Both the position numbers and the translations under genes were made by a program. DNA of 7,766 nucleotides, taken from contig JAGQIY010000203.1 of assembly GCA_020430865.1 (NCBI GenBank), forward strand, positions 1 to 7,766, written 5' to 3'. Positions 1-7,766 of this stretch are shown piece after piece. How positions within the stretch are numbered: the stretch's first letter is position 1; each line of letters begins with the position of its first letter. Under the pieces are notes generated by a model. It made no database searches. It worked only from the letters and a program-made list of their open reading frames with translations, and was not told the DNA's origin. The stretch comes from Myxococcales bacterium. Its GTDB lineage: Bacteria > Myxococcota > Polyangia > Polyangiales > Polyangiaceae.

Positions 1-548
1 AAGTCCATGACCTTCACGGAGCCGTTCGAGCCCACGAGGATATTCTGCGGGGAAACGTCCCGGTGGACGACGTCCAAGCGATTGCCGTGGTCGTCCGTCA
101 GCTCGTGCGCGGCGTGCAGGCCGCCACATGCTTCGGCGATGATCTTCGCCGCTAGACGGGCGTTGAGCCTCTGCGGCAGCGCTCCCTCGACTCCCGTTCC
201 AGGCTTGAGCAGGCGCGCGAGGCTCTCCCCCTCGACCCACTCCATGGCGAGGTAGAGCACCCCGTCTTCTTCACCGAGATCGAAGATCTCGCAGACATTG
301 GGGTGGTGTACTCCCGCTGCCACACGAGCCTCATCGAGGAACATGCGCTCGAAGGTCTCGTCCTCGGCGAGATTGGGGAGGATGGTCTTGATCGCGACCA
401 CCTTGCTGAAGCCACGCTGTCCGTGTTGCTTCGCCGCCCACACGCGCGCCATCCCGCCCTGGGCCACTGCGAGAAGAATCTCGTAGCGACCGAGGCGATC
501 TCCGGGATGGACCTCTCCGAGGCCACGGCCTGGCGCACTACCGATCAC
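1..548 (-). CDS. Ser/Thr protein kinase, N-terminal part (runs off the left edge)
   Basis: Hanks-type Ser/Thr kinase; 182 complete codons are visible and the gene continues past position 1. Translated from the GTG at 548-546, it shows a glycine-rich loop (AQGGMARVW, residues 29-37), the ATP-binding Lys in VAIK (K54), the helix-C Glu (E73), the catalytic loop HRDVSPQN (H162-N169), and the Asp of DFG (D182) as the last full codon. The loop has Ser where HRDLKPxN kinases have Lys, a variant common in Myxococcota kinases. The GTG is the only reasonable start: an in-frame TGA lies six codons upstream, and the next ATG falls inside the glycine loop. No Shine-Dalgarno is seen; a -10 box lies 9 bases upstream, so the mRNA may be leaderless. 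C-terminal sensor or effector domains are outside the window. Fold is certain; substrate unknown. Confidence 0.95.
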   Translation of the reverse strand, partial: MIGSAPGRGLGEVHPGDRLGRYEILLAVAQGGMARVWAAKQHGQRGFSKVVAIKTILPNLAEDETFERMFLDEARVAAGVHHPNVCEIFDLGEEDGVLYLAMEWVEGESLARLLKPGTGVEGALPQRLNARLAAKIIAEACGGLHAAHELTDDHGNRLDVVHRDVSPQNILVGSNGSVKVMD

Positions 549-557
549 GAACTGCTC

Positions 558-566
558 ATTATATCA
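558..566 (-). promoter_or_regulatory. Extended -10 promoter of the left kinase
   Basis: Reading on the minus strand, TGATATAAT is a perfect extended -10 element (TGnTATAAT). Its last base (558) is followed by nine bases and then the kinase GTG. A start of transcription 6-8 bases downstream would fall at or within a few bases of the start codon, so a leaderless or near-leaderless mRNA is inferred. No convincing -35 hexamer lies 16-18 bases upstream, as expected for an extended -10 promoter. Confidence 0.55.
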
Positions 567-743
567 AGCAAGCGCCGAACGCACGCCCGAGAGAACCCCC
601 CGAGGGGTGGTTTTACGATTGAGCGTTCGTTTTTCTTATCACTCAGTGACAGCTTTGCGACGTGTAGGGAAATGAACCGCGCAGTCTGACCTGGACGTTC
701 ACGATTTCGCGCGCCCGAGCGCCTCCGAGCGCGACCAAAGTTG

Positions 744-765
744 AACTCAACCTCAGGTTTGAGTT
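744..765 (-). terminator. A/T-rich inverted repeat after the small lipoprotein gene
   Basis: AACTCAA (744-750) and TTGAGTT (759-765) form a perfect 7-bp stem around an 8-base loop. It begins 25 bases past the stop of the lipoprotein gene at 790, and is A/T-rich in an otherwise G/C-rich region. Position suggests a transcription terminator, but neither strand has a long T tract (only TTTT on the plus side). A palindromic operator is the alternative. Confidence 0.35.
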
Positions 766-789
766 TTGCGCGTGGGAAGTCGCTCGCAT

Positions 790-1086
790 TCAGTAGGTGG
801 TCGTCGCCGTTGGAGCGCGCGCCATCACCACCTTGTTGCCGTAGGCGGGAGGTGGGGCGAGGTGCTCCGGCACCTCGCTGGGAGAATCGTACTCCGTGCG
901 CGGCTCGATCGCTCGCGGGGGTGCCTTGGGGCTGGGGGGCTGGGAAGCTGCGCACCCGCTCCCCAAACACAAAGCGAACACAGCCAACGCTCCGACACGC
1001 CAGCGCGCGATCGGGGTTGGTGAGTTGGTGGTGACCGGGGCGCGGGTCGCACTCGTTCCAGTGATACACCGCATCTCTTCAAGCAT
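790..1086 (-). CDS. Small putative lipoprotein (98 aa)
   Basis: No family recognised. The sequence shows a hydrophilic N-region of about 28 residues, a hydrophobic core (RWRVGALAVFALCLGSGC, residues 29-45 or so) ending in a signal peptidase II site with Cys45, then a short Pro/Ala-rich mature part of about 53 residues with no recognisable domain. The start at 1086 is supported by AGGAG seven bases upstream of the ATG, one of the best ribosome-binding sites in the window. A second ATG four codons in would also leave an intact signal peptide. It lies on the same strand as the downstream kinase but 241 bases away, with an inverted repeat and a separate promoter between, so co-transcription is not implied. 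Probably an envelope-anchored small protein; the long N-region is slightly atypical for a lipoprotein. Confidence 0.6.
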   Translation of the reverse strand: MLEEMRCITGTSATRAPVTTNSPTPIARWRVGALAVFALCLGSGCAASQPPSPKAPPRAIEPRTEYDSPSEVPEHLAPPPAYGNKVVMARAPTATTTY

Positions 1087-1306
1087 AGCTCATCTCCTCT
1101 GCGGCGCACGTCATCAGCGATCCGAACGGCGCATCCGCGACGGCGTTCTCGGTGCCCGCGATCGAGGTCTTTGCAGGGACCGCGCCGAAGATCCCCCGCG
1201 AAGGCTCCGGAGCGCGGGCGCCAGTCGCGGGGAGGAAGTGTGGCGTTATCGAGCCCGTGTGGAACCTTGCAACCACTCCCGGAGTCGGCAGCGTGGGCGA
1301 GCGCAC
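1079..1306 (-). CDS. Doubtful ORF overlapping the small lipoprotein start (75 aa)
   Basis: A GTG-started frame of 75 codons with an in-frame TAG just upstream. No domain, signal or membrane segment is recognised. Two things argue for it: its stop codon lies 8 bases inside the downstream lipoprotein gene, the arrangement seen in translationally coupled pairs, and third codon positions are mostly G or C. Against it: no clear ribosome-binding site, no family, and a composition that could arise by chance in G/C-rich DNA. It could also be the tail of a decayed gene. Confidence 0.25.
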   Translation of the reverse strand: MRSPTLPTPGVVARFHTGSITPHFLPATGARAPEPSRGIFGAVPAKTSIAGTENAVADAPFGSLMTCAAEEMSYA

Positions 1307-1626
1307 GTGGAGCTACATTGCCGTGCGGATATGAGTTCGCAACGACCGATTGCCGCCGCTCAGGTTCTCCAGGTATCGTGGCGTCGCCGAGCCACCCCCG
1401 ATCGTCTGCCAGCCAGGCAGCCACCCGAGCTCACAGTCCGGTCTCAGCTCACGCGATCGGGGGTGAGGACCGCTGGTGTGGCTCCCGAGCCTCGCCAGCA
1501 CGGCCCCGTCGCCGTCGCTGTTCCCCTCGCTGTTCCCGCGTCCACGAACCGCATTTCTGGCTGGATTCGTGGTCGAGGAGACTTCGGACGTGGCGCGCGT
1601 GCTCGCGTTGGGCTTTCCCCCTGTGA
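1307..1626. other. Stretch without a convincing gene
   Basis: Open frames exist on both strands here, but none has a recognisable domain or ribosome-binding site; plus-strand frames are Arg/Ala-rich in the way of shadow frames. A minus-strand frame ending at 1313 has some protein-like C-terminal sequence (about 1313-1440) but no start or family I can support. The stretch holds a 12-bp inverted repeat (1393-1465), reported separately, and must carry the promoter of the nuclease gene at its right end. It could be a degraded gene or a regulatory spacer. Confidence 0.4.
1393..1465. repeat. 12-bp perfect inverted repeat, 49-base spacer
   Basis: CACCCCCGATCG (1393-1404) is the exact reverse complement of CGATCGGGGGTG (1454-1465). 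The spacer also contains a short GAGCT/AGCTC pair and a direct repeat of AGCTCAC. As RNA from either strand it would give a long-armed stem-loop. Function unknown; it lies in a gene-free stretch upstream of the nuclease gene. Confidence 0.5.
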
Positions 1627-1632
1627 TAGCTT
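1627..1632 (+). promoter_or_regulatory. Possible -10 box of the nuclease-channel unit
   Basis: TAGCTT fits TAnnnT and ends six bases before the GTG at 1639, so transcription would begin at about the start codon. No good -35 hexamer is present at standard spacing (TTGGGC at 1608 is only 13 bases away). The case rests on position and on the absence of a Shine-Dalgarno. Confidence 0.25.
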
Positions 1633-1638
1633 GCCGCC

Positions 1639-2214
1639 GTGGATCGAGGCACGCAGTCATTCTGGCTGCTGGTGATGGTCCTCCTTGCCGCATCCGTCGT
1701 CTTCGGCTTCGGCGCGGAAGGGCGCCGTCGCCAGGTACAGAGCAGTGAGTCCAGTCTGGCGACTGGAGATATCGTGGGCCTCGCCGAGGTCGTCGATGGC
1801 GACTCCCTGGTCGTCGTCAAGGGCGAGCAGCGAGTCGCCGTGCGCCTGATCGGCATCAAGGCCTTCGATCCGAAGAGCGACCCTGGGGACGCTTCGCGCT
1901 TCGGCCGCGAGGCGGTGAGCGAGCTCACGCGGTTATTGAAGGACAAGCCGATCCGCGTGCTGCTGCACGATCCTCCCACCGACGCCCACGGGCGGACCCT
2001 GGCCGAGCTGTTCGTCGACGACCAAGACGTCGCGCTCGACATGGTCAAGCGGGGGCTGGTCTTGGTCTATACGGTGTATCCGTTCGGATCCATGAGCATG
2101 TATCTGCAAGAGCAGGCCAGGGCGAAGGCGGATCGCGTGGGACTGTGGTCGGAGTCGGACATGGCGAAGCGCGCCGAGCTCCTGAGCCGCGAATGGAGCC
2201 GGAAGTCGGAATGA
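1639..2214 (+). CDS. Membrane-anchored staphylococcal-nuclease-like protein (191 aa)
   Basis: Thermonuclease (SNase, OB-fold) family. An N-terminal hydrophobic helix (FWLLVMVLLAASVVFGFG, about residues 8-25) looks like an uncleaved anchor or signal peptide, placing the domain in the periplasm or outside. The SNase domain runs from about 42 to 172: VVDGDSLVV (D53, D55), VRLIGI (R69), GRTLAELF (R119), and a GLW end at 168-170. R69 and R119 match SNase Arg35 and Arg87, and D55 matches Asp21. Where SNase has D40-T-P-E43, this protein has K74-A-F-D77, so a calcium ligand is replaced by Lys and the general base Glu by Asp; activity may be altered or lost. GTG 1639 is chosen because an in-frame TAG lies four codons upstream; ATG 1675 would cut into the hydrophobic helix. 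The stop overlaps the channel gene start by four bases, so the two are probably coupled. Confidence 0.88.
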   Translation: MDRGTQSFWLLVMVLLAASVVFGFGAEGRRRQVQSSESSLATGDIVGLAEVVDGDSLVVVKGEQRVAVRLIGIKAFDPKSDPGDASRFGREAVSELTRLLKDKPIRVLLHDPPTDAHGRTLAELFVDDQDVALDMVKRGLVLVYTVYPFGSMSMYLQEQARAKADRVGLWSESDMAKRAELLSREWSRKSE

Positions 2215-3248
2215 CGCTGTTCCTCCGGTTCTTTTCCCGGCGCATGCTGCGGACCCCGCCGGCGCCATTCAAGGTCGGCGTGTTGATCGTCGCGGTGCTG
2301 CTCTACGGCGCTGCCGGCTTCCTCTACTTCGAGCTGCCGAGCAAACCGGACCTCGGCTGGGGGGATGCGTTCTGGTACTCGTTCGTGACGGTCACCACCG
2401 TCGGCTACGGCGACTACTATCCGTCGACCTGGGAGGGGCGCTTCTTCGTCGCCGTCCCGCTGATGTTTTTTGGCATCGGCTTGCTCGGCTACGTTCTGTC
2501 CTTGGCCGCGAGCGCGCTGGTCGAGGCAAAGACCAAAGAGGTGCGAGGAATGAGCGCTCACAAGCTGCAGGATCACCTGGTCGTGTTCAACTTCCCGGGG
2601 CTGGCGAAGTTCGAACGGCTCATGTCGGAGCTGCGGGCAGATTCGAACTTCGGGACCCATCGTGAGGTCGTGCTGGTCGACGAGGAGCTCGCGGAGCTCC
2701 CCGTGGAGCTGGTCGAACGTCACGTGCACTTCGTCAGGGGTAACCCCACGCGCGACGAGACGCTCACCCGAGCAAGCCTGGACGAGTCAGCCTACGCGAT
2801 CATCCTGGCGAAGAACCCGGGCGATCCCCACTCGGACAACCTCAGCGTCGCGATCACGCTGGCGGTCGAGGCCCGCACCGCGGGCGTCCACACCGTCGTG
2901 GAGTGCGTGGACTTCGCGACCCAGGAGCTACTGCGCAAGGCGGGCTGTGACTCGATCGTCTGCACCTCGCGCTTCGACGCCCACTTCATCTCTCACGAGT
3001 TGTTGAACCCAGGCGTGCAGGAGCTGCTACACGAGCTGACCAGCAACACCCACGGCCAGCAGCTCTACCTCACGCCGTCCAAGGAAGAGGGGAAGTTCAG
3101 CGCGCTGCGCGATCATTGCGTCAAGCAGGGGCACCTTCCCGTCGGCCTGCTGCGCAAGGGGGAGACGCTACTCAACCCTGCCCAGGACCTCGCGCTCGAG
3201 CCTGGCGATGCGTTGATCAGCATCGGACCGACGCGCTTGACGCTTTGA
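2211..3248 (+). CDS. Two-TM potassium channel with RCK (TrkA-N/TrkA-C) domains, MthK-like (345 aa)
   Basis: Inner-membrane K+ channel. In order: TM1 (about residues 22-41), pore helix and selectivity filter TTVGYGD (62-68), TM2 (about 77-104), linker, an RCK/Rossmann domain (about 121-255), and a TrkA-C-like domain to the end. A short cytoplasmic N-terminus precedes TM1. The usual GxGxxG nucleotide motif is replaced by FNFPGL (126-131), as in the calcium-gated RCK of MthK, which also lacks it. Of the MthK calcium ligands, the Glu in the VVEC segment (E231) may correspond to one, but the others appear absent, so the gating ligand is uncertain. A functional channel would be a tetramer. ATG 2211 is chosen over an upstream in-frame start at 2145 because GGAAG lies five bases before it and ATGA overlaps the nuclease stop exactly. 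Length fits a two-TM RCK channel. Confidence 0.93.
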   Translation: MTLFLRFFSRRMLRTPPAPFKVGVLIVAVLLYGAAGFLYFELPSKPDLGWGDAFWYSFVTVTTVGYGDYYPSTWEGRFFVAVPLMFFGIGLLGYVLSLAASALVEAKTKEVRGMSAHKLQDHLVVFNFPGLAKFERLMSELRADSNFGTHREVVLVDEELAELPVELVERHVHFVRGNPTRDETLTRASLDESAYAIILAKNPGDPHSDNLSVAITLAVEARTAGVHTVVECVDFATQELLRKAGCDSIVCTSRFDAHFISHELLNPGVQELLHELTSNTHGQQLYLTPSKEEGKFSALRDHCVKQGHLPVGLLRKGETLLNPAQDLALEPGDALISIGPTRLTL

Positions 3249-3251
3249 TCG

Positions 3252-3277
3252 GCGGCGCTGATCCCCTGCTGCGCCGC
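3252..3277 (+). terminator. Inverted repeat just after the channel gene
   Basis: GCGGCGC (3252-3258) and GCGCCGC (3271-3277) form a perfect 7-bp stem with a 12-base loop, starting four bases after the channel stop. There is no T tract, so an intrinsic terminator is only suggested by position; it could equally stabilise the 3' end of the mRNA. Confidence 0.35.
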
Positions 3278-3376
3278 TGAGCCCGCCGCGGCCTCGATGG
3301 CCTGAGGTGTCCAGTTCGGCGTCGCTTGCTGGTTTGTCGATTGACGGCGGGGGACGATGGGCGAAGGTTTCGCGGC

Positions 3377-5161
3377 GTGCGCTTCCTTTGGTCGGTGCTG
3401 GTCAACATCTGGCTGCTCTTGTGGTGGCCCCTACGCGCGTTGCGGTCCCGCCGTGCCTGCCCCAGGGGTGGTTTCCTTGCGCTGAAGCTCGATGGACAGG
3501 TGGTGGAAATCGCCGCTCGACGCCGCTTCTGGCAGCGGGGGCCGCGGGTCGTTTCCGTGCATGCGCTCCGGGAGACCCTCGAACTCGCCGCGCTCGACTC
3601 ACGAGTGCGAGGTCTGGTCGTCAGCTTTCGACACGCGAGTCTCGGGGCGGCGGTGGCCACGAGCTTGCGTGAGGTGCTCGAGGGGTGGCGTGCTCGGGGC
3701 AAACCGCTGATAGCCTTCTTGCCTCTGGGCGCCGGCAACCGCGAGCTGTATGTGGCTTCGGTCGCCGATCGCGTCTACCTGGGCCATGAGACGTGGGTAT
3801 TGCCGCTCGGATTTTCCGTCGACTCTCCGTATCTCAAGGGAGCGCTGGATCGCCTGGGAGTCGAGCCCGACGTGTACGCGCGTCGCGAGTACAAGACCGC
3901 GATGGAGTTCGTCACACGCAGTGAGATGAGCGCGGCCCAGCGTGAGCAGCTCGGCGCACTCCTGGATGATGCCTACGAGCGGCTGCTCCAAGCCCTGACC
4001 GGCGGTCGCGGTGTGACTCCCGAGCGCGCACGGGAATGGGTGGATGGCGCGCCCTATGACGCCGAGGACGCCGCCTCGGTGGGACTGGTTGATGGCGTCT
4101 TGGATGACGAGGCGCTGTTGCAGGTGCTGGCCAGTGCCGAGCTCACGCTTCCGGTGTCAGAGGACGCGCCGCGCGCCCGACTGGTATCCGTCGCCGCCTA
4201 CGCGCGACGTCGACGCGTGCGCTTCCGTCCACTGGTCCGACGGCCCTACGTCGCCGTCGTCGAGATGCGCGGAGCCATTGTTGGCAAGGGTCCAGGCGCT
4301 CCACAGCTGGGCGAGTTCGTGGTCGATGACGAGTTTCGAGAGATCCTCGAGGAAGTGGAGAGCGACCCCAAGGCGCTGGGAGTGGTCGTTCACATCGACT
4401 CGCGCGGTGGCAGCGCGCTGGCCTCTGACCGCATTCTCCGCGCCGTGAAGAAGCTCGCACGCAAGAAGCCAGTCGTAGCCTACATGGGGAACATCGCGGC
4501 GAGCGGCGGCTACATGATCGCCCTCGGTGGACAGCGGCTGATCGCGCAGCCTTCCACCATCACCGGTTCCATCGGCGTGGTCGCGGCGAGGCTGATCATC
4601 GAGCGCCTCGCCACGCGCCTCGGTGTCAGCTTCCAGCATGAAGCGCGGGGCGCGCATGCCGGCATGCTGTCCGCGTTCAAGCCGTTCAGCGTGAGCGAGA
4701 AGGCCCGCTTCGAGAGCCTGATCGATGCTGGGTACCGGCGCTTCGTGACGTCGGTCGCCGATGCCCGGGGGCGGAGCTTCGAAGACATCGAGCCGCTCGC
4801 CAGAGGTCGGGTGTGGAGCGCCAGCGCTGCGCTCGAGCGGGGCCTGGTCGACGAGCTTGGGGGCCTCGACCGCGCGCTTGAAGCCATACGGCAACGAATC
4901 GGTGAGAACGGGCGCAAGGCCGAGGTGATCGCCATCGCGCCCCGCAGCCTGCCGTCTCCGCTGTCGTTGGTCGGCGCGCGCGCGAGCCTGGGAGATCGCT
5001 TCGCGAGTCTCCTCGCACGGCTCGCGTCCCCGAGCGGGCTCGAGGCGTCGGTCCAGCCGCAGCTTGCTTTGCTTGGCCTCGGGCTACTGTCGGCAGCCGA
5101 GGCCGCCTCTCAGCGACCCCAGCTGTTGATGTGGTGTGACATCGAGACGCCGGGCGCTTAG
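3377..5161 (+). CDS. sppA: Signal peptide peptidase SppA, long (67K) type (594 aa)
   Basis: Membrane-bound serine protease (S49 family) that degrades cleaved signal peptides. It begins with an N-terminal membrane helix (VLVNIWLLLWWPL, about residues 7-19), followed by a first S49 domain carrying the catalytic Lys (K173 in REYKTAMEF) and a second S49 domain carrying the nucleophile Ser (S376 in NIAASGGYMIA). The Lys-Ser spacing of 203 residues is close to the 200 of E. coli SppA (K209, S409), and length (594 versus 618) fits the duplicated-domain form rather than the short SppA. GTG 3377 is chosen because it sits a few codons before the helix; in-frame TTG codons at 3326 and 3341 would add an unlikely hydrophilic extension. 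TTGACG at 3341-3346 could be a -35 box, with a weak -10 (AAGGTT, 3364-3369) before the GTG. No Shine-Dalgarno is evident. The gene stands alone and converges on the propeller lipoprotein. Confidence 0.92.
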   Translation: MRFLWSVLVNIWLLLWWPLRALRSRRACPRGGFLALKLDGQVVEIAARRRFWQRGPRVVSVHALRETLELAALDSRVRGLVVSFRHASLGAAVATSLREVLEGWRARGKPLIAFLPLGAGNRELYVASVADRVYLGHETWVLPLGFSVDSPYLKGALDRLGVEPDVYARREYKTAMEFVTRSEMSAAQREQLGALLDDAYERLLQALTGGRGVTPERAREWVDGAPYDAEDAASVGLVDGVLDDEALLQVLASAELTLPVSEDAPRARLVSVAAYARRRRVRFRPLVRRPYVAVVEMRGAIVGKGPGAPQLGEFVVDDEFREILEEVESDPKALGVVVHIDSRGGSALASDRILRAVKKLARKKPVVAYMGNIAASGGYMIALGGQRLIAQPSTITGSIGVVAARLIIERLATRLGVSFQHEARGAHAGMLSAFKPFSVSEKARFESLIDAGYRRFVTSVADARGRSFEDIEPLARGRVWSASAALERGLVDELGGLDRALEAIRQRIGENGRKAEVIAIAPRSLPSPLSLVGARASLGDRFASLLARLASPSGLEASVQPQLALLGLGLLSAAEAASQRPQLLMWCDIETPGA

Positions 5162-5177
5162 TTCCGCTGCCCGGCGT
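5147..5177. terminator. Perfect inverted repeat between convergent genes, probable bidirectional terminator
   Basis: ACGCCGGGC (5147-5155) and GCCCGGCGT (5169-5177) form a perfect 9-bp stem with a 13-base loop. It spans the sppA stop and most of the 23-base gap to the end of the convergent lipoprotein gene. The left arm can also pair with CCGGCGTC at 5179-5186, giving a competing longer-looped stem. No T tract follows on either strand, so termination is inferred from strength and position. Confidence 0.55.
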
Positions 5178-5184
5178 TCCGGCG

Positions 5185-6543
5185 TCACGGGCGGAAGGTC
5201 GAACTCCCTGTGTAGCCGAGGCCAGAGGTGAACGGGTTCTGAGCGATCACGCTGCGCGCACCCGTGGCTGCGTCGACGCGCACGACCTCGAACGTGGTGT
5301 TCGTGCCGTCGGAGACGGTGTCGACACCGTAGAGTGTGCCCTGCCCATCCGTGGTGGCTGCGTCGGGGACGAACGACACCTGGGCACCCAGGGTCGAGTC
5401 GGTCGTGTTCCAGGAATGCCCCTCCTCCGTGAAGCCCGCGAAGCTCTGAAGCAGCACCTGGTCGGGGTTCCAGAGCAGCGTGGAGTAGAAGGCGTCTCCA
5501 GCAGGCGCGAGGGCTTCGGTCTGGTGGAGGTCAGACAGCTTGATCGCATTCACGCCCAGGCTGCTACGCGCGCTGGCTCCGTTGCCAAAGCAGCCGGAAC
5601 TCAAGACGTAAAGAGTGTCGCTGCTCTCCACGTAGTGCACCGAGGTCGGCGCGACATGCAGTAGCTCCAGGCCGACGCCGGGATCTGAACCGTTGAGGTC
5701 GACGATGCTGTCGTCAGTCACGTCCAGGGCCATCAGCAGGCTCCTGCCCGTGCAGGCTAGCTGGTAGTCCGGTGCGATGATGGTGCTCAGGTCGATACGC
5801 GCGAGCGTGAACCAAATGCGATTCCTCGAGGAATCAAACCACGCATAGTCCGGTTCGACTCCGCCGTCCGTGTCCAGCGTGTCCCCAAAGCCCGTCAGGT
5901 CGATGGTCTTGGTCAGCGTGTTGTCGTCGAGGTTCAGCACGGCGACATGCCCAGCGTCATACAGCGGGACATACGCCTTTAGTGGACTCGTCCCTGTCGC
6001 CACCACGACGTCGTGAGGGTTCTGACTGGAGGCGCTGGCGACGGCGGTGCCGAGATCGATGCTGCTACCGGTCGCGGCGCCGTCCACGTCCAGCGGGTGA
6101 ACGACCGCCGCGGTGCGTTCCAGAGCGAACGCGCGCCCGCCGGACACCGTGACCACGCTGTCCGGATCGTCGAGCTCGAGGCGGGCGGTCTGGGTGCCGT
6201 CCAGCGTGAGCGCGACGACCTCCGTTGCCGTCGCGAAGTCCGTCGCCGAGACGAACAGCCGAGGCGCGGTCGGTTCGCTACCCCCGGCGCCAGCGTTGGA
6301 CCCGCCCGTGCCCCCGGCCCCACCAACGCCGGCTCCCCCGCTTCCAGCGCTGCCGCCAGCCCCAGCGATCGAGCCGCCCGCTCCCGCCCCTGCGGAGCTG
6401 CCTCCCGAACCCGCGCTCGAGGCGCCGCCGGCGTCGGTGCCCGCTTGGCCTCCCGTCGCCGTGCTGGAGTTCAGCGTTTCGTCCTCACCGCAGCCGCTGG
6501 TGAATGCCAAAAAAATCAGTAAATACAGTGCTTTATGCTTCAT
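5185..6543 (-). CDS. Beta-propeller-like lipoprotein under a B12 riboswitch; candidate cobalamin-capture protein (452 aa)
   Basis: Signal peptide MKHKALYLLIFLAFTSGC with the lipidated Cys at 18, then a Gly/Ala/Ser-rich stalk (about residues 29-92), then a domain of about 360 residues with repeated beta-strand units such as AYVPLYDAGHVAVLNLDD (190-207) and TLYVLSSG (310-317). These resemble YVTN/YncE-type beta-propeller blades. Two Cys in the domain (264, 318) could form a disulfide. The stalk suggests display on the outer membrane surface. The mRNA leader, over 390 bases, contains a cobalamin riboswitch, so expression should fall when B12 is plentiful. BtuG of Bacteroidota is a surface beta-propeller lipoprotein that binds B12; similarity here is in architecture and regulation, not a demonstrated sequence match. 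No enzyme motif is seen. The first 15 or so codons are A/T-rich (TTA, TAT, ATT), unlike the rest. A weak AAGAG/AGG lies before the ATG at 6543. Confidence 0.85.
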   Translation of the reverse strand: MKHKALYLLIFLAFTSGCGEDETLNSSTATGGQAGTDAGGASSAGSGGSSAGAGAGGSIAGAGGSAGSGGAGVGGAGGTGGSNAGAGGSEPTAPRLFVSATDFATATEVVALTLDGTQTARLELDDPDSVVTVSGGRAFALERTAAVVHPLDVDGAATGSSIDLGTAVASASSQNPHDVVVATGTSPLKAYVPLYDAGHVAVLNLDDNTLTKTIDLTGFGDTLDTDGGVEPDYAWFDSSRNRIWFTLARIDLSTIIAPDYQLACTGRSLLMALDVTDDSIVDLNGSDPGVGLELLHVAPTSVHYVESSDTLYVLSSGCFGNGASARSSLGVNAIKLSDLHQTEALAPAGDAFYSTLLWNPDQVLLQSFAGFTEEGHSWNTTDSTLGAQVSFVPDAATTDGQGTLYGVDTVSDGTNTTFEVVRVDAATGARSVIAQNPFTSGLGYTGSSTFRP

Positions 6544-6705
6544 TTGCCTACTCTTGTCGCCGCCCGCGACAGGGGCCCTGGGGGCGAGGTAGGCGAAGCT
6601 CGAGGCGAGGCAACCCGCATTCTGCGGGCAGGCCGAGCCGTTGCGACACCCGGCCCTGACACCCCGCAGAGCAATTTGGATGGGTTGGGTAACCGAAGGG
6701 CTACC
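6541..6705 (-). promoter_or_regulatory. Expression platform of the B12 riboswitch
   Basis: Just past the aptamer, GGTAGCC (6705-6699) and GGTTACC (6694-6688) form a 7-bp hairpin with a CTTC loop, in the place of P13 of known cobalamin riboswitches. Further on, the segment 6623-6628 can pair either with 6614-6619 (6-bp stem, 3-base loop) or, as 6621-6628, with 6663-6670 (8-bp stem); the two are mutually exclusive. The region before the start codon (AGTAGGCAAATG) can be covered by TTGCCT (6613-6608) or GCCTAC (6594-6589). This pattern fits translational rather than terminator control; no T tract is present. All pairings were found by eye. Confidence 0.5.
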
Positions 6706-6714
6706 GTTCGTCCT

Positions 6715-6940
6715 CGAGGCTCGGTCTCCTGACTTCCGGGTCGAACCTTCAGTGAGCCTTCCCAGAGCCTGACCTTTGCGCGGTTTGGCGCGTTCGGCTG
6801 CTCCAGTGGCGTTGCGCCGGCTCGCGAAGAGCTGACGTCACCTCAGTACCGGTCACAGTGGCGGGGGCCGTGCTGGTCTCACACCAGCTTCCCTTGCCTC
6901 GGGGAGCGTCACGGCGTGTGACGCGTGACCCCCATAGCAC
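6715..6940 (-). promoter_or_regulatory. Cobalamin (B12) riboswitch aptamer
   Basis: Reading 5'-3' on the minus strand: a 5' GGT followed by a hairpin GTCACG/CGTGAC (6929-6924 with 6913-6908); AAGGGAAG (J3/4); P4 GCTGGT/ACCAGC (6888-6883 with 6877-6872); CCCCCGCCACTGTGA; a CCGG/CCGG arm (6852-6849 with 6820-6817); GCCACTGG; GGGAAGGC; and the B12 box AAGTCAGGAGACC ending near 6724. A 6-bp helix CGAGGC/GCCTCG (6901-6896 with 6720-6715) closes the core. The box is followed by GAGCC rather than the usual TGCC. Order, spacing and total length of about 225 bases match known cobalamin riboswitches. The 5' boundary is approximate. Confidence 0.95.
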
Positions 6941-7245
6941 GCTTCCCGGGGCTCCCGTCCAACCCAAGCCGGCCCACCTGGGAAAATCGCGGGTTCACGC
7001 TGGGGGCTGTCCCTGGGGTGGTGATGCCAGAAGAAGTGACCCCGAGCGGTCCCTCACCCCCGAAAACCTGGCTTTCGATTGCAGAACAGTCACAGATCGA
7101 CGAGGCTACCAGCCTCTACTCTGCGCCTCTAAAGGTGCGAGCTGACACGTACTTATCGCCGCCGAAGTCGCCCTGGGTTTCCTGACTCCTCGAGCCACTC
7201 GACGGCACGACAGCAAGACCGCACTACAGGTAAGCTCTTTCCGGC
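6941..7245. other. Intergenic region between divergent riboswitch transcript and right kinase
   Basis: Must hold the promoter of the riboswitch-lipoprotein mRNA (minus) and that of the kinase (plus). No confident minus-strand promoter was found. Two small adjacent stem-loops occur: GAGGCT/AGCCTC (7102-7107 with 7111-7116, loop ACC) and GCGCCT/AGGTGC with one G-T pair near 7126-7140. A short plus-strand frame at 7024-7185 (53 codons) has mixed codon use and no supporting signal, so no gene is called. Confidence 0.5.
7207..7236 (+). promoter_or_regulatory. Possible promoter of the right kinase
   Basis: ACGACA (7207-7212, four of six -35 matches) and TAAGCT (7231-7236, fits TAnnnT) are separated by 18 bases. 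The -10 ends nine bases before the ATG at 7246, the same distance as for the left kinase, so a leaderless or very short-leader mRNA is possible. No Shine-Dalgarno precedes the ATG. Confidence 0.35.
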
Positions 7246-7766
7246 ATGGCTGGCGCACGCAACCTACCCCCGCTTGGTCACGGCACGATCGTCAACGACC
7301 GCTACGAGATCCGACAGAGCCTCGGCAAGGGTGGCATGGGCGAGGTATTCCTCGCTTACGATCGCAGCACGCAACAAACCGTGGCGCTGAAGATCGTGCG
7401 CGAGGAGAGCCGAATGCCTGGCGACGACGAGGCGCTACGCCAGGAGCTGTTGCTGGCGCGCAGCGTGAGTCATCCCAACGTGTGCCGCGTGCACGACCTC
7501 GCCCCGAGTCCATGGGGTCCGATCCTGGTGATGGAGCACATCCCGGGCCAGACGCTGCACACACACATCCGGCGTCGCAAGGCTCAGGGCGGGTACACGT
7601 CGGACGAGTTCCGCAAGATCGCCAGCGAGACCACGGCGGGACTGGCCGCGATCCACGCCCAGGGACTCGTCCACGGTGACCTGAAGCCGGGCAACGTGAT
7701 GGTCACCGCCGACAAGGCGGTGATCCTCGACTTCGGCTTCGCGCAGGAGCGCGCGCGTCTCAGCGC
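7246..7766 (+). CDS. Non-RD Ser/Thr protein kinase, N-terminal part (runs off the right edge)
   Basis: Hanks-type kinase with 173 complete codons visible. It shows RYEIRQSLGKGGMGEVFLAYD (glycine loop G27-G32), the ATP-binding Lys in VALK (K49), helix-C Glu (E67), the catalytic loop HGDLKPGN (H143-N150), and DFG (D162-G164). The Arg before the catalytic Asp is replaced by Gly (G144), making this a non-RD kinase, which in the family usually implies activity not controlled by activation-loop phosphorylation; all residues needed for phosphotransfer are present. The ATG at 7246 gives a 19-residue lead to the kinase domain, usual for this group. Downstream domains (often TPR, forkhead-associated or sensor modules) lie outside. 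It is divergent from the B12 riboswitch transcript; no functional link is shown. Substrate unknown. Confidence 0.95.
   Translation, partial: MAGARNLPPLGHGTIVNDRYEIRQSLGKGGMGEVFLAYDRSTQQTVALKIVREESRMPGDDEALRQELLLARSVSHPNVCRVHDLAPSPWGPILVMEHIPGQTLHTHIRRRKAQGGYTSDEFRKIASETTAGLAAIHAQGLVHGDLKPGNVMVTADKAVILDFGFAQERARLS

Follow-up and report, generated by a model that had tools for sequence, protein, structure and literature searches.

A riboswitch-led propeller lipoprotein of a myxobacterium that very likely captures corrinoids in the manner of BtuG

Why should a stalked propeller lipoprotein be placed under the control of vitamin B12? The question is raised by a 7,766-nucleotide contig of a Myxococcales bacterium (JAGQIY010000203.1, positions 1 to 7,766, assembly GCA_020430865.1; this whole stretch is referred to here as the window), in which a cobalamin riboswitch stands before the gene for such a protein. 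The obvious comparison is BtuG, the very tightly B12-binding surface lipoprotein of gut Bacteroides (PMC6143338). We consider it very likely that the myxobacterial protein is an outer-membrane lipoprotein that captures corrinoids and works with a BtuB-like receptor as BtuG does; its corrinoid binding, its surface exposure and its complex with the receptor are what we infer from the evidence below.

The riboswitch aptamer (RF00174; 6723..6893, minus strand) scores 73.1 bits in Rfam (E 5.1e-17), well above the gathering score of 31.5 bits; the match covers model positions 46-168 of 189 and is the sole Rfam match at the gathering threshold in the window. Its end is separated by 179 nucleotides from the ATG start of the lipoprotein gene (5185..6543, minus strand; 452 residues), which we have labelled BtuG-like on the basis of its open reading frame, its homologues, an AlphaFold2 model and fold matches. 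The protein, all of whose parts are encoded on the minus strand, begins with a lipoprotein signal peptide (6490..6543) that, judged by eye, ends in a lipobox-like FTSGC with the cysteine at residue 18. A stalk identified by its composition follows (residues 19-92; 6268..6489), in which residues 20-92 comprise 28 Gly, 15 Ala and 12 Ser, or 55 of 73. The remainder, residues 93-452 (5188..6267), is predicted to be a seven-bladed beta-propeller: the AlphaFold2 model of this 360-residue domain, built on a 21-sequence alignment, has a mean predicted local distance difference test score (pLDDT) of 92.0 and a predicted template modelling score (pTM) of 0.91, and the order of its strands can be read as seven blades, the first of them closed by the C-terminal strand. 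An initial annotation of this DNA had described a well-formed cobalamin riboswitch reading into a lipoprotein with a Gly/Ala/Ser stalk and a propeller-like domain, and in both respects it is borne out. For the window protein neither Pfam nor NCBIfam gives a match up to E 1, and a search of the PDB sequences with it alone gave nothing useful. DUF5074, which we take to be the Pfam family of BtuG, has not been counted as a family label, only one of 27 members matching it and then only at E 0.09.

The fold of the domain points to BtuG. BtuG chains are the best fold matches for the models of two different members, occupying Foldseek ranks 1-3 and 1-10 and VIA ranks 1-11 and 1-8, respectively; the comparison of residues 93-452 with BtuG that the initial annotation had proposed thus gave a propeller with BtuG structures on top. 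XusB and BtuK1 are also among the fold matches, ranked below most BtuG chains. At the sequence level we have employed several profiles: A2 (full-length), A5 (the window's group), A9 (11 members, 10 of them from outside the order and one, L096, from a genome of the order) and A10 (combined). By order and phylum we mean those of the genome that carries the orthologue of the window protein (recorded as Polyangia bacterium), the phylum being presumably Myxococcota. Against the PDB sequences A9 matches nine rows at E 3.9e-6 to 1e-4, over a stretch that we read as blades 3-4, and the next entry is at 0.32. We take all nine rows to be BtuG, so that no other PDB sequence would be reached at E<1e-3; two of them (8puj and 8baz) carry no BtuG title and are assigned to it because their match ranges are nearly those of 8okv/8p97 and 8bai/3dsm. 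A9 also recognises members from within the order (e.g. the orthologue in genome G001, E 1.8e-21), and A5 and A9 align to each other in hhalign with a probability of 99.9 and E 9.6e-34. Below its first match, the combined profile A10 finds the same nine BtuG2/3-type rows at 2.6e-6 to 2.7e-5 over about 250 columns, then glutamine cyclotransferase at 4.2e-4, and A2 gives only stray PDB matches, many of them in the stalk region. Judged from these comparisons, the family across the phylum has a good case for kinship with BtuG, and the window protein an indirect one.

The pairing of riboswitch and lipoprotein gene recurs. The orthologue (L001; 74% identical), which lies in the metagenome-assembled genome 'Polyangia bacterium isolate Co_bin.42' (G001), retains both the riboswitch (77.4 bits) and the neighbouring open reading frames, and the arrangement of the window is therefore more than chance; some database relatives bear the name Polyangiaceae bacterium. 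Within the order, a search of 183 genomes with A2 gave matches in 112 at E<=1e-5, many of the weak rows covering the stalk only. The set that we have counted consists of 66 homologue places in 51 genomes, down to E 4.1e-12, which were then searched for RF00174 (genomes G155, G007, G011, G006, G013 and G010 and all rows weaker than E 4.1e-12 were left out). At 45 of these 66 places a same-strand cobalamin riboswitch lies directly upstream, 54-475 bp from the aligned start, and so 45 of the 114 riboswitch rows in the 51 genomes (5 of the 114 being below the gathering score) lead to this lipoprotein family; by rough arithmetic, with ~2.2 riboswitches per ~7.5 Mb genome, chance would provide well under 0.1 case. 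Seven further genomes of the order (the six left out and G015) were inspected by eye, and in six the riboswitch is directly upstream, the exception being G155. For the phylum, A9 was run against 188 genomes, 76 of which have a match at E<=1e-12, and from these we have taken, regardless of riboswitches, all 40 unexamined genomes outside the order down to E 2.8e-27. A same-strand RF00174 match is found upstream at 28 of their 42 homologue places. Of the gaps, 26 measure 1.8-2.4 kb and the remaining two 3.8 kb and 43 bp; one contig (G275) contributes two mirrored places to the 28, which may be due to faulty assembly. An earlier phylum search had given weaker homologues; inspection by eye of its best 14 outside-order genomes revealed, in 11, a riboswitch on the same strand no more than about 4 kb upstream, the remaining three being G444 and G352, where the contig breaks off within the receptor gene, and G205, which has no riboswitch. 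Myxococcota homologues behind B12 riboswitches, or near TonB receptors, were what the initial annotation had suggested looking for, and they are found both inside and outside the order.

Among the linked places outside the order, 27 of the 28 were read (the mirrored G275 copy being left out), and 25 of them have a match to a Pfam-confirmed TonB receptor between riboswitch and lipoprotein (tblastn, E 1.6e-42 or better); the other two have a companion lipoprotein, discussed below, alone (L123) or nothing between (L141). A separate set comprises the 13 loci that have a riboswitch or receptor among the best 14 outside the order. In 11 of these (L085-L091, L094, L095, L099 and L100) a receptor with Plug and barrel domains precedes the lipoprotein, while in L092 and L093 the companion lipoprotein lies between the riboswitch and the propeller gene; a receptor then follows in L092 and none was seen in the 7 kb read of L093. 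This riboswitch-receptor-lipoprotein layout is the btuB-btuG arrangement of Bacteroides, as described in PMC6143338 and PMC10404256. The linked receptors match the BtuB family TIGR01779 at E<=0.001 in 20 of 20 genomes. Moreover, BtuF- and BtuD-like genes follow the receptor and lipoprotein genes in L090, and in G145 the lipoprotein gene, behind its own riboswitch, converges on an operon composed of a riboswitch, a TonB-dependent receptor, a FecCD permease, an ATP-binding cassette (ABC) ATPase and a Peripla_BP_2 protein. For the receptor, permease and ATPase of this operon the best NCBIfam models are, respectively, the B12 receptor, BtuC and a corrinoid ABC transporter ATPase, with scores that all lie far under the cut-offs. 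G146 and G147 have the same converging layout (the ABC genes were tested in G145 and G146), and in G019 the receptor gene and the lipoprotein gene point away from each other, with a separate riboswitch for each. Within the order the receptor gene often lies elsewhere, behind a different riboswitch: 69 riboswitches lead to no homologue, and downstream of 8 of the 22 that we chose from them (one of the 22 below the gathering score) tblastn finds a receptor. A single genome can hold both layouts, to judge by two loci of the order, L110 (G088:C103) and L111 (G068:C484), in which a second propeller match comes after a receptor gene that has a riboswitch before it (tblastn E 2.5e-4 and 1.9e-5); the one in G088 is also matched by A9 at E 1.4e-16. 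The G145 operon also holds, after its binding-protein gene, a gene for a DUF7676 protein (L035:10920-11582), for which a B12-linked role is possible.

One face of the propeller seems to be the more conserved, although this depends on our own assignment of blades and loops from the strand list of the model (domain numbering plus 92 gives protein numbering). In the 49 aligned sequences of the window's group, the second aspartate of a D-T-D-G motif (protein residues 224-227; 5863..5874, minus strand), D134, is present in all and the first, D132, in 48. Two cysteines, Cys264 (domain C172; 5752..5754, minus strand) and Cys318 (domain C226; 5590..5592, minus strand), are invariant in the same 49 and may be disulfide partners; they are confined to the window's group and not kept in more distant members, where the C172 position is gapped in A10. 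D132, D134, D159, C172 and C226, each present in 47-49 of the 49, would all lie in loops assigned to the top face. Of 12 conserved polar positions in this group, six are in top loops, six in strands and none in bottom loops; top-loop positions 11, 103, 127, 168, 279 and 346 are aromatic (or His) in 67-92%. In a 32-sequence alignment Asn83, Pro84, Asp132 and Asp134 are kept at >=90%. In BtuG2, according to PMC10404256, B12 is bound in a central cavity on a negatively charged face, with Trp and Tyr around the upper ligand, and the likeness of our conserved top face to that site is suggestive only. A negatively charged binding face is not something that we rely on: the top carries more negative charge than the bottom in 36 of 48 sequences (mean -8.6 versus -4.2), which is a mean trend and does not extend to the window protein.

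A number of observations weigh against our reading. No riboswitch was found upstream at 21 of the 66 places in the order and 14 of the 42 outside it (some of these are second copies in genomes that also have a riboswitch-led one, and some are on short contigs). The TIGR01779 cut-off is exceeded in none of the 20 genomes, the best NCBIfam model of the L090 receptor is one for siderophore receptors, and with the binding proteins of L035 (G145) and L090 BtuF comes only second among the NCBIfam models. The structure scores of BtuG and of the YVTN propeller 1l0q are only 1.4 and 0.9 Z apart. In the PDB, profile A5 reaches 1l0q (1.9e-8), YncE (1.5e-4) and glutamine cyclotransferase (0.0016) and no BtuG, while A10 ranks 1l0q first (5.8e-15) and reaches the BtuG1 entries only at 0.05-0.2. 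Finally, the absence of conserved polar positions from the bottom loops is a weak contrast, these loops making up only 64 of 360 positions, and the two faces of the window protein are about equally acidic (-11 and -12).

Could these observations be better explained otherwise? The protein might be a corrinoid carrier of the periplasm rather than of the surface, passing B12 from the receptor to BtuF. Surface export is not proven by sequence, and PMC6143338 describes the lipoprotein export signal of BtuG as exclusive to Bacteroidetes; some loci, however, already hold BtuF-like binding proteins, and a position outside the cell is favoured both by the length and flexibility of the stalk and by the parallel with the BtuBG lid, so that we consider a periplasmic carrier rather unlikely. 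More unlikely still is a generic propeller lipoprotein of the YVTN/YncE type with another function (adhesion, scaffold or another metallocofactor) that came to be regulated by B12. Both 1l0q, an archaeal surface-layer protein, and YncE belong to the same propeller superfamily and are the proteins that A5 matches; but the myxobacterial family is marked by a DxDG motif, and we know of no B12 riboswitch or transport linkage for those propellers. What argues against this alternative is that, in many genomes, the family is repeatedly linked under cobalamin riboswitches with TonB receptors and BtuCDF-like genes, and that the A9 profile matches BtuG and nothing else in the PDB. Hardly credible is a B12-independent replacement enzyme, a lactonase- or glutamine-cyclotransferase-like propeller: B12 riboswitches do also control B12-independent isozymes, and two of 27 members weakly match glutamine cyclotransferase in Pfam (best E 0.0021), as A5 does in the PDB, but the stalked lipoprotein form, the transport-gene linkage and the resemblance to BtuG all speak against it. 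The proposal of a surface B12 scavenger akin to BtuG, already made in the initial annotation, is supported by the fold, the riboswitch and receptor linkage and the A9 match; that the protein acts like BtuG has a high probability, and it is probably also homologous to it.

On a BtuG-like reading, a corrinoid such as vitamin B12 would be captured on one face of the seven-bladed propeller, which the Gly/Ala/Ser stalk would let reach out from the membrane, and would then be passed on to a TonB-dependent receptor of the BtuB type, just as happens with BtuG in Bacteroides. In the window's order the lipoprotein gene mostly stands behind a riboswitch of its own, often at some other locus than the receptor gene; elsewhere in the phylum it mostly comes directly after the receptor gene, the two sharing one riboswitch. 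When B12 is scarce the riboswitch would leave the ribosome-binding site free and the protein would be made; when B12 is plentiful, ligand binding would favour sequestration of that site. This scheme stems from the predicted minimum free energy fold of the leader, which contains a hairpin (6546..6594, minus strand), the likely expression platform, in which GCCUAC (6594-6589) pairs with GUAGGC (6551-6546) and which covers the ribosome-binding site just 5' of the ATG. The z value of the whole-leader fold is -2.4 in the window. In the orthologue the same site is folded by other bases (CCUCGUC with GACGAGG), the whole-leader z of -1.0 not being unusual. The folds covering the ribosome-binding site in these two leaders suggest translational control by its sequestration. 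An intrinsic terminator was considered as the expression platform and rejected, none being found between riboswitch and gene. That this riboswitch senses corrinoids and changes expression is likewise presumed, as are the direction and the mechanism of the control. Another cobalamin riboswitch in G001 (contig C116; L002/L119) is followed by an open reading frame that by eye resembles the large subunit of class I ribonucleotide reductase, a usual B12-independent replacement.

The companion already mentioned is a second family, a short lipoprotein with a FENxF motif. It is found behind 11 of the 22 other riboswitches that were read, in 5 cases with a receptor too, and also in G145, where it separates the two propeller genes, and in L086, L092, L093, L123 and L142; in several loci it is just 5' of the TonB receptor. 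Members that are FENxF-bearing and LIC_13355-like have been placed at L120:3632-4222 (minus strand), L035:13337-14041, L086:3105-4094, L092:5114-6163 and L093:4310-5059, and the family is further represented in L101, L102, L103, L105, L107, L108, L112, L113, L117, L118, L123 and L142. NCBIfam LIC_13355 is matched by 14 of 15 members (best E 1.5e-14), the scores listed for two of them, 33.5 and 45.6 bits, both falling below the cut-off of 120. The profile of the companion family has a sole PDB match, 7biz (E 0.035), which is the entry that accompanies the paper on BtuH2 (PMC8941943). That the only match is a B12-binding lipoprotein is weak but striking, and the companion, which is short, lacks the PKD domains of BtuH2 and scores marginally, is possibly a distant relative of BtuH. 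We think it reasonably likely, with less assurance than for the lipoprotein itself, that the phylum has an outer-membrane system of a BtuB-like receptor, a BtuG-homologous propeller and a BtuH-related short lipoprotein, all under cobalamin riboswitches; that BtuG-type lids are older or more mobile than one phylum; and that in the window's order the lid was parted from its receptor and came under a switch of its own, on a long flexible stalk.

The closest known system is thus that of BtuG1/2/3 from B. thetaiotaomicron and relatives (8bmx, 8bai, 8bmy, 8bmz, 8bn0, 8okv, 8p97, 8blw, 8ptd, 8ptf and 3dsm). It shares with the present family an N-terminal lipoprotein, a seven-bladed propeller (predicted here), an upstream cobalamin riboswitch and, in most relatives outside the order, the order receptor then lipoprotein. 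The family differs in being myxobacterial, in its 10-16% identity to BtuG in structure alignments and in its long Gly/Ala/Ser stalk; the window's group differs also in its two invariant cysteines, its own riboswitch and a locus often separate from the receptor. The novelty with respect to BtuG would accordingly lie in the phylum, the stalk, the cysteines and, in the window's order, the often separate regulation. XusB, the xenosiderophore lipoprotein of Bacteroides (9hqk and 9hqe), is likewise a propeller lipoprotein, but its ligand is a siderophore (it binds an iron chelate), and at Foldseek rank 13 for the second model it stands behind BtuG2 and BtuG3 chains. Wexler et al. (2018; PMC6143338) state that BtuG homologues occur exclusively among Bacteroidetes, on the basis of BLASTP against 313 human gut genomes; as only human gut genomes were searched, soil myxobacteria are outside that survey. 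We found no report of BtuG in Myxococcota in the literature searched, which included few subscription papers and no bioRxiv preprints; another B12-binding family, DUF4465 (BtuJ), is reported also in Myxococcota in PMC13398666. If the reading is true, surface corrinoid capture is a strategy not confined to Bacteroidetes, which is of interest in soil bacteria, whose vitamins may come from neighbouring cells or prey. A protein without a Pfam or NCBIfam match would gain a testable function, and the often separate regulation of the two genes would offer a natural setting in which to test the BtuBG lid model.

Five neighbouring open reading frames of the window were tested with Pfam, and none is a B12 gene: they encode protein kinases at both ends (3-548, minus strand, and 7246-7764, plus strand), an SNase-domain protein, an ion channel with TrkA_N and an S49 peptidase, which agrees with the earlier statement that the window holds neither btuB nor btuF, none having been seen. 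No TonB receptor was found in these 7.8 kb. A search of plasmid DNA gave nothing similar to the window. In the order, one 11 kb contig (L038, G108:C133) has four propeller lipoprotein matches in a row, and G108 has three riboswitch rows, none of them on that contig. Finally, a kinase that by eye shares its N-terminal sequence with the riboswitch-adjacent kinase of the window recurs near the homologue in L042, L043, L045, L046 and L050.
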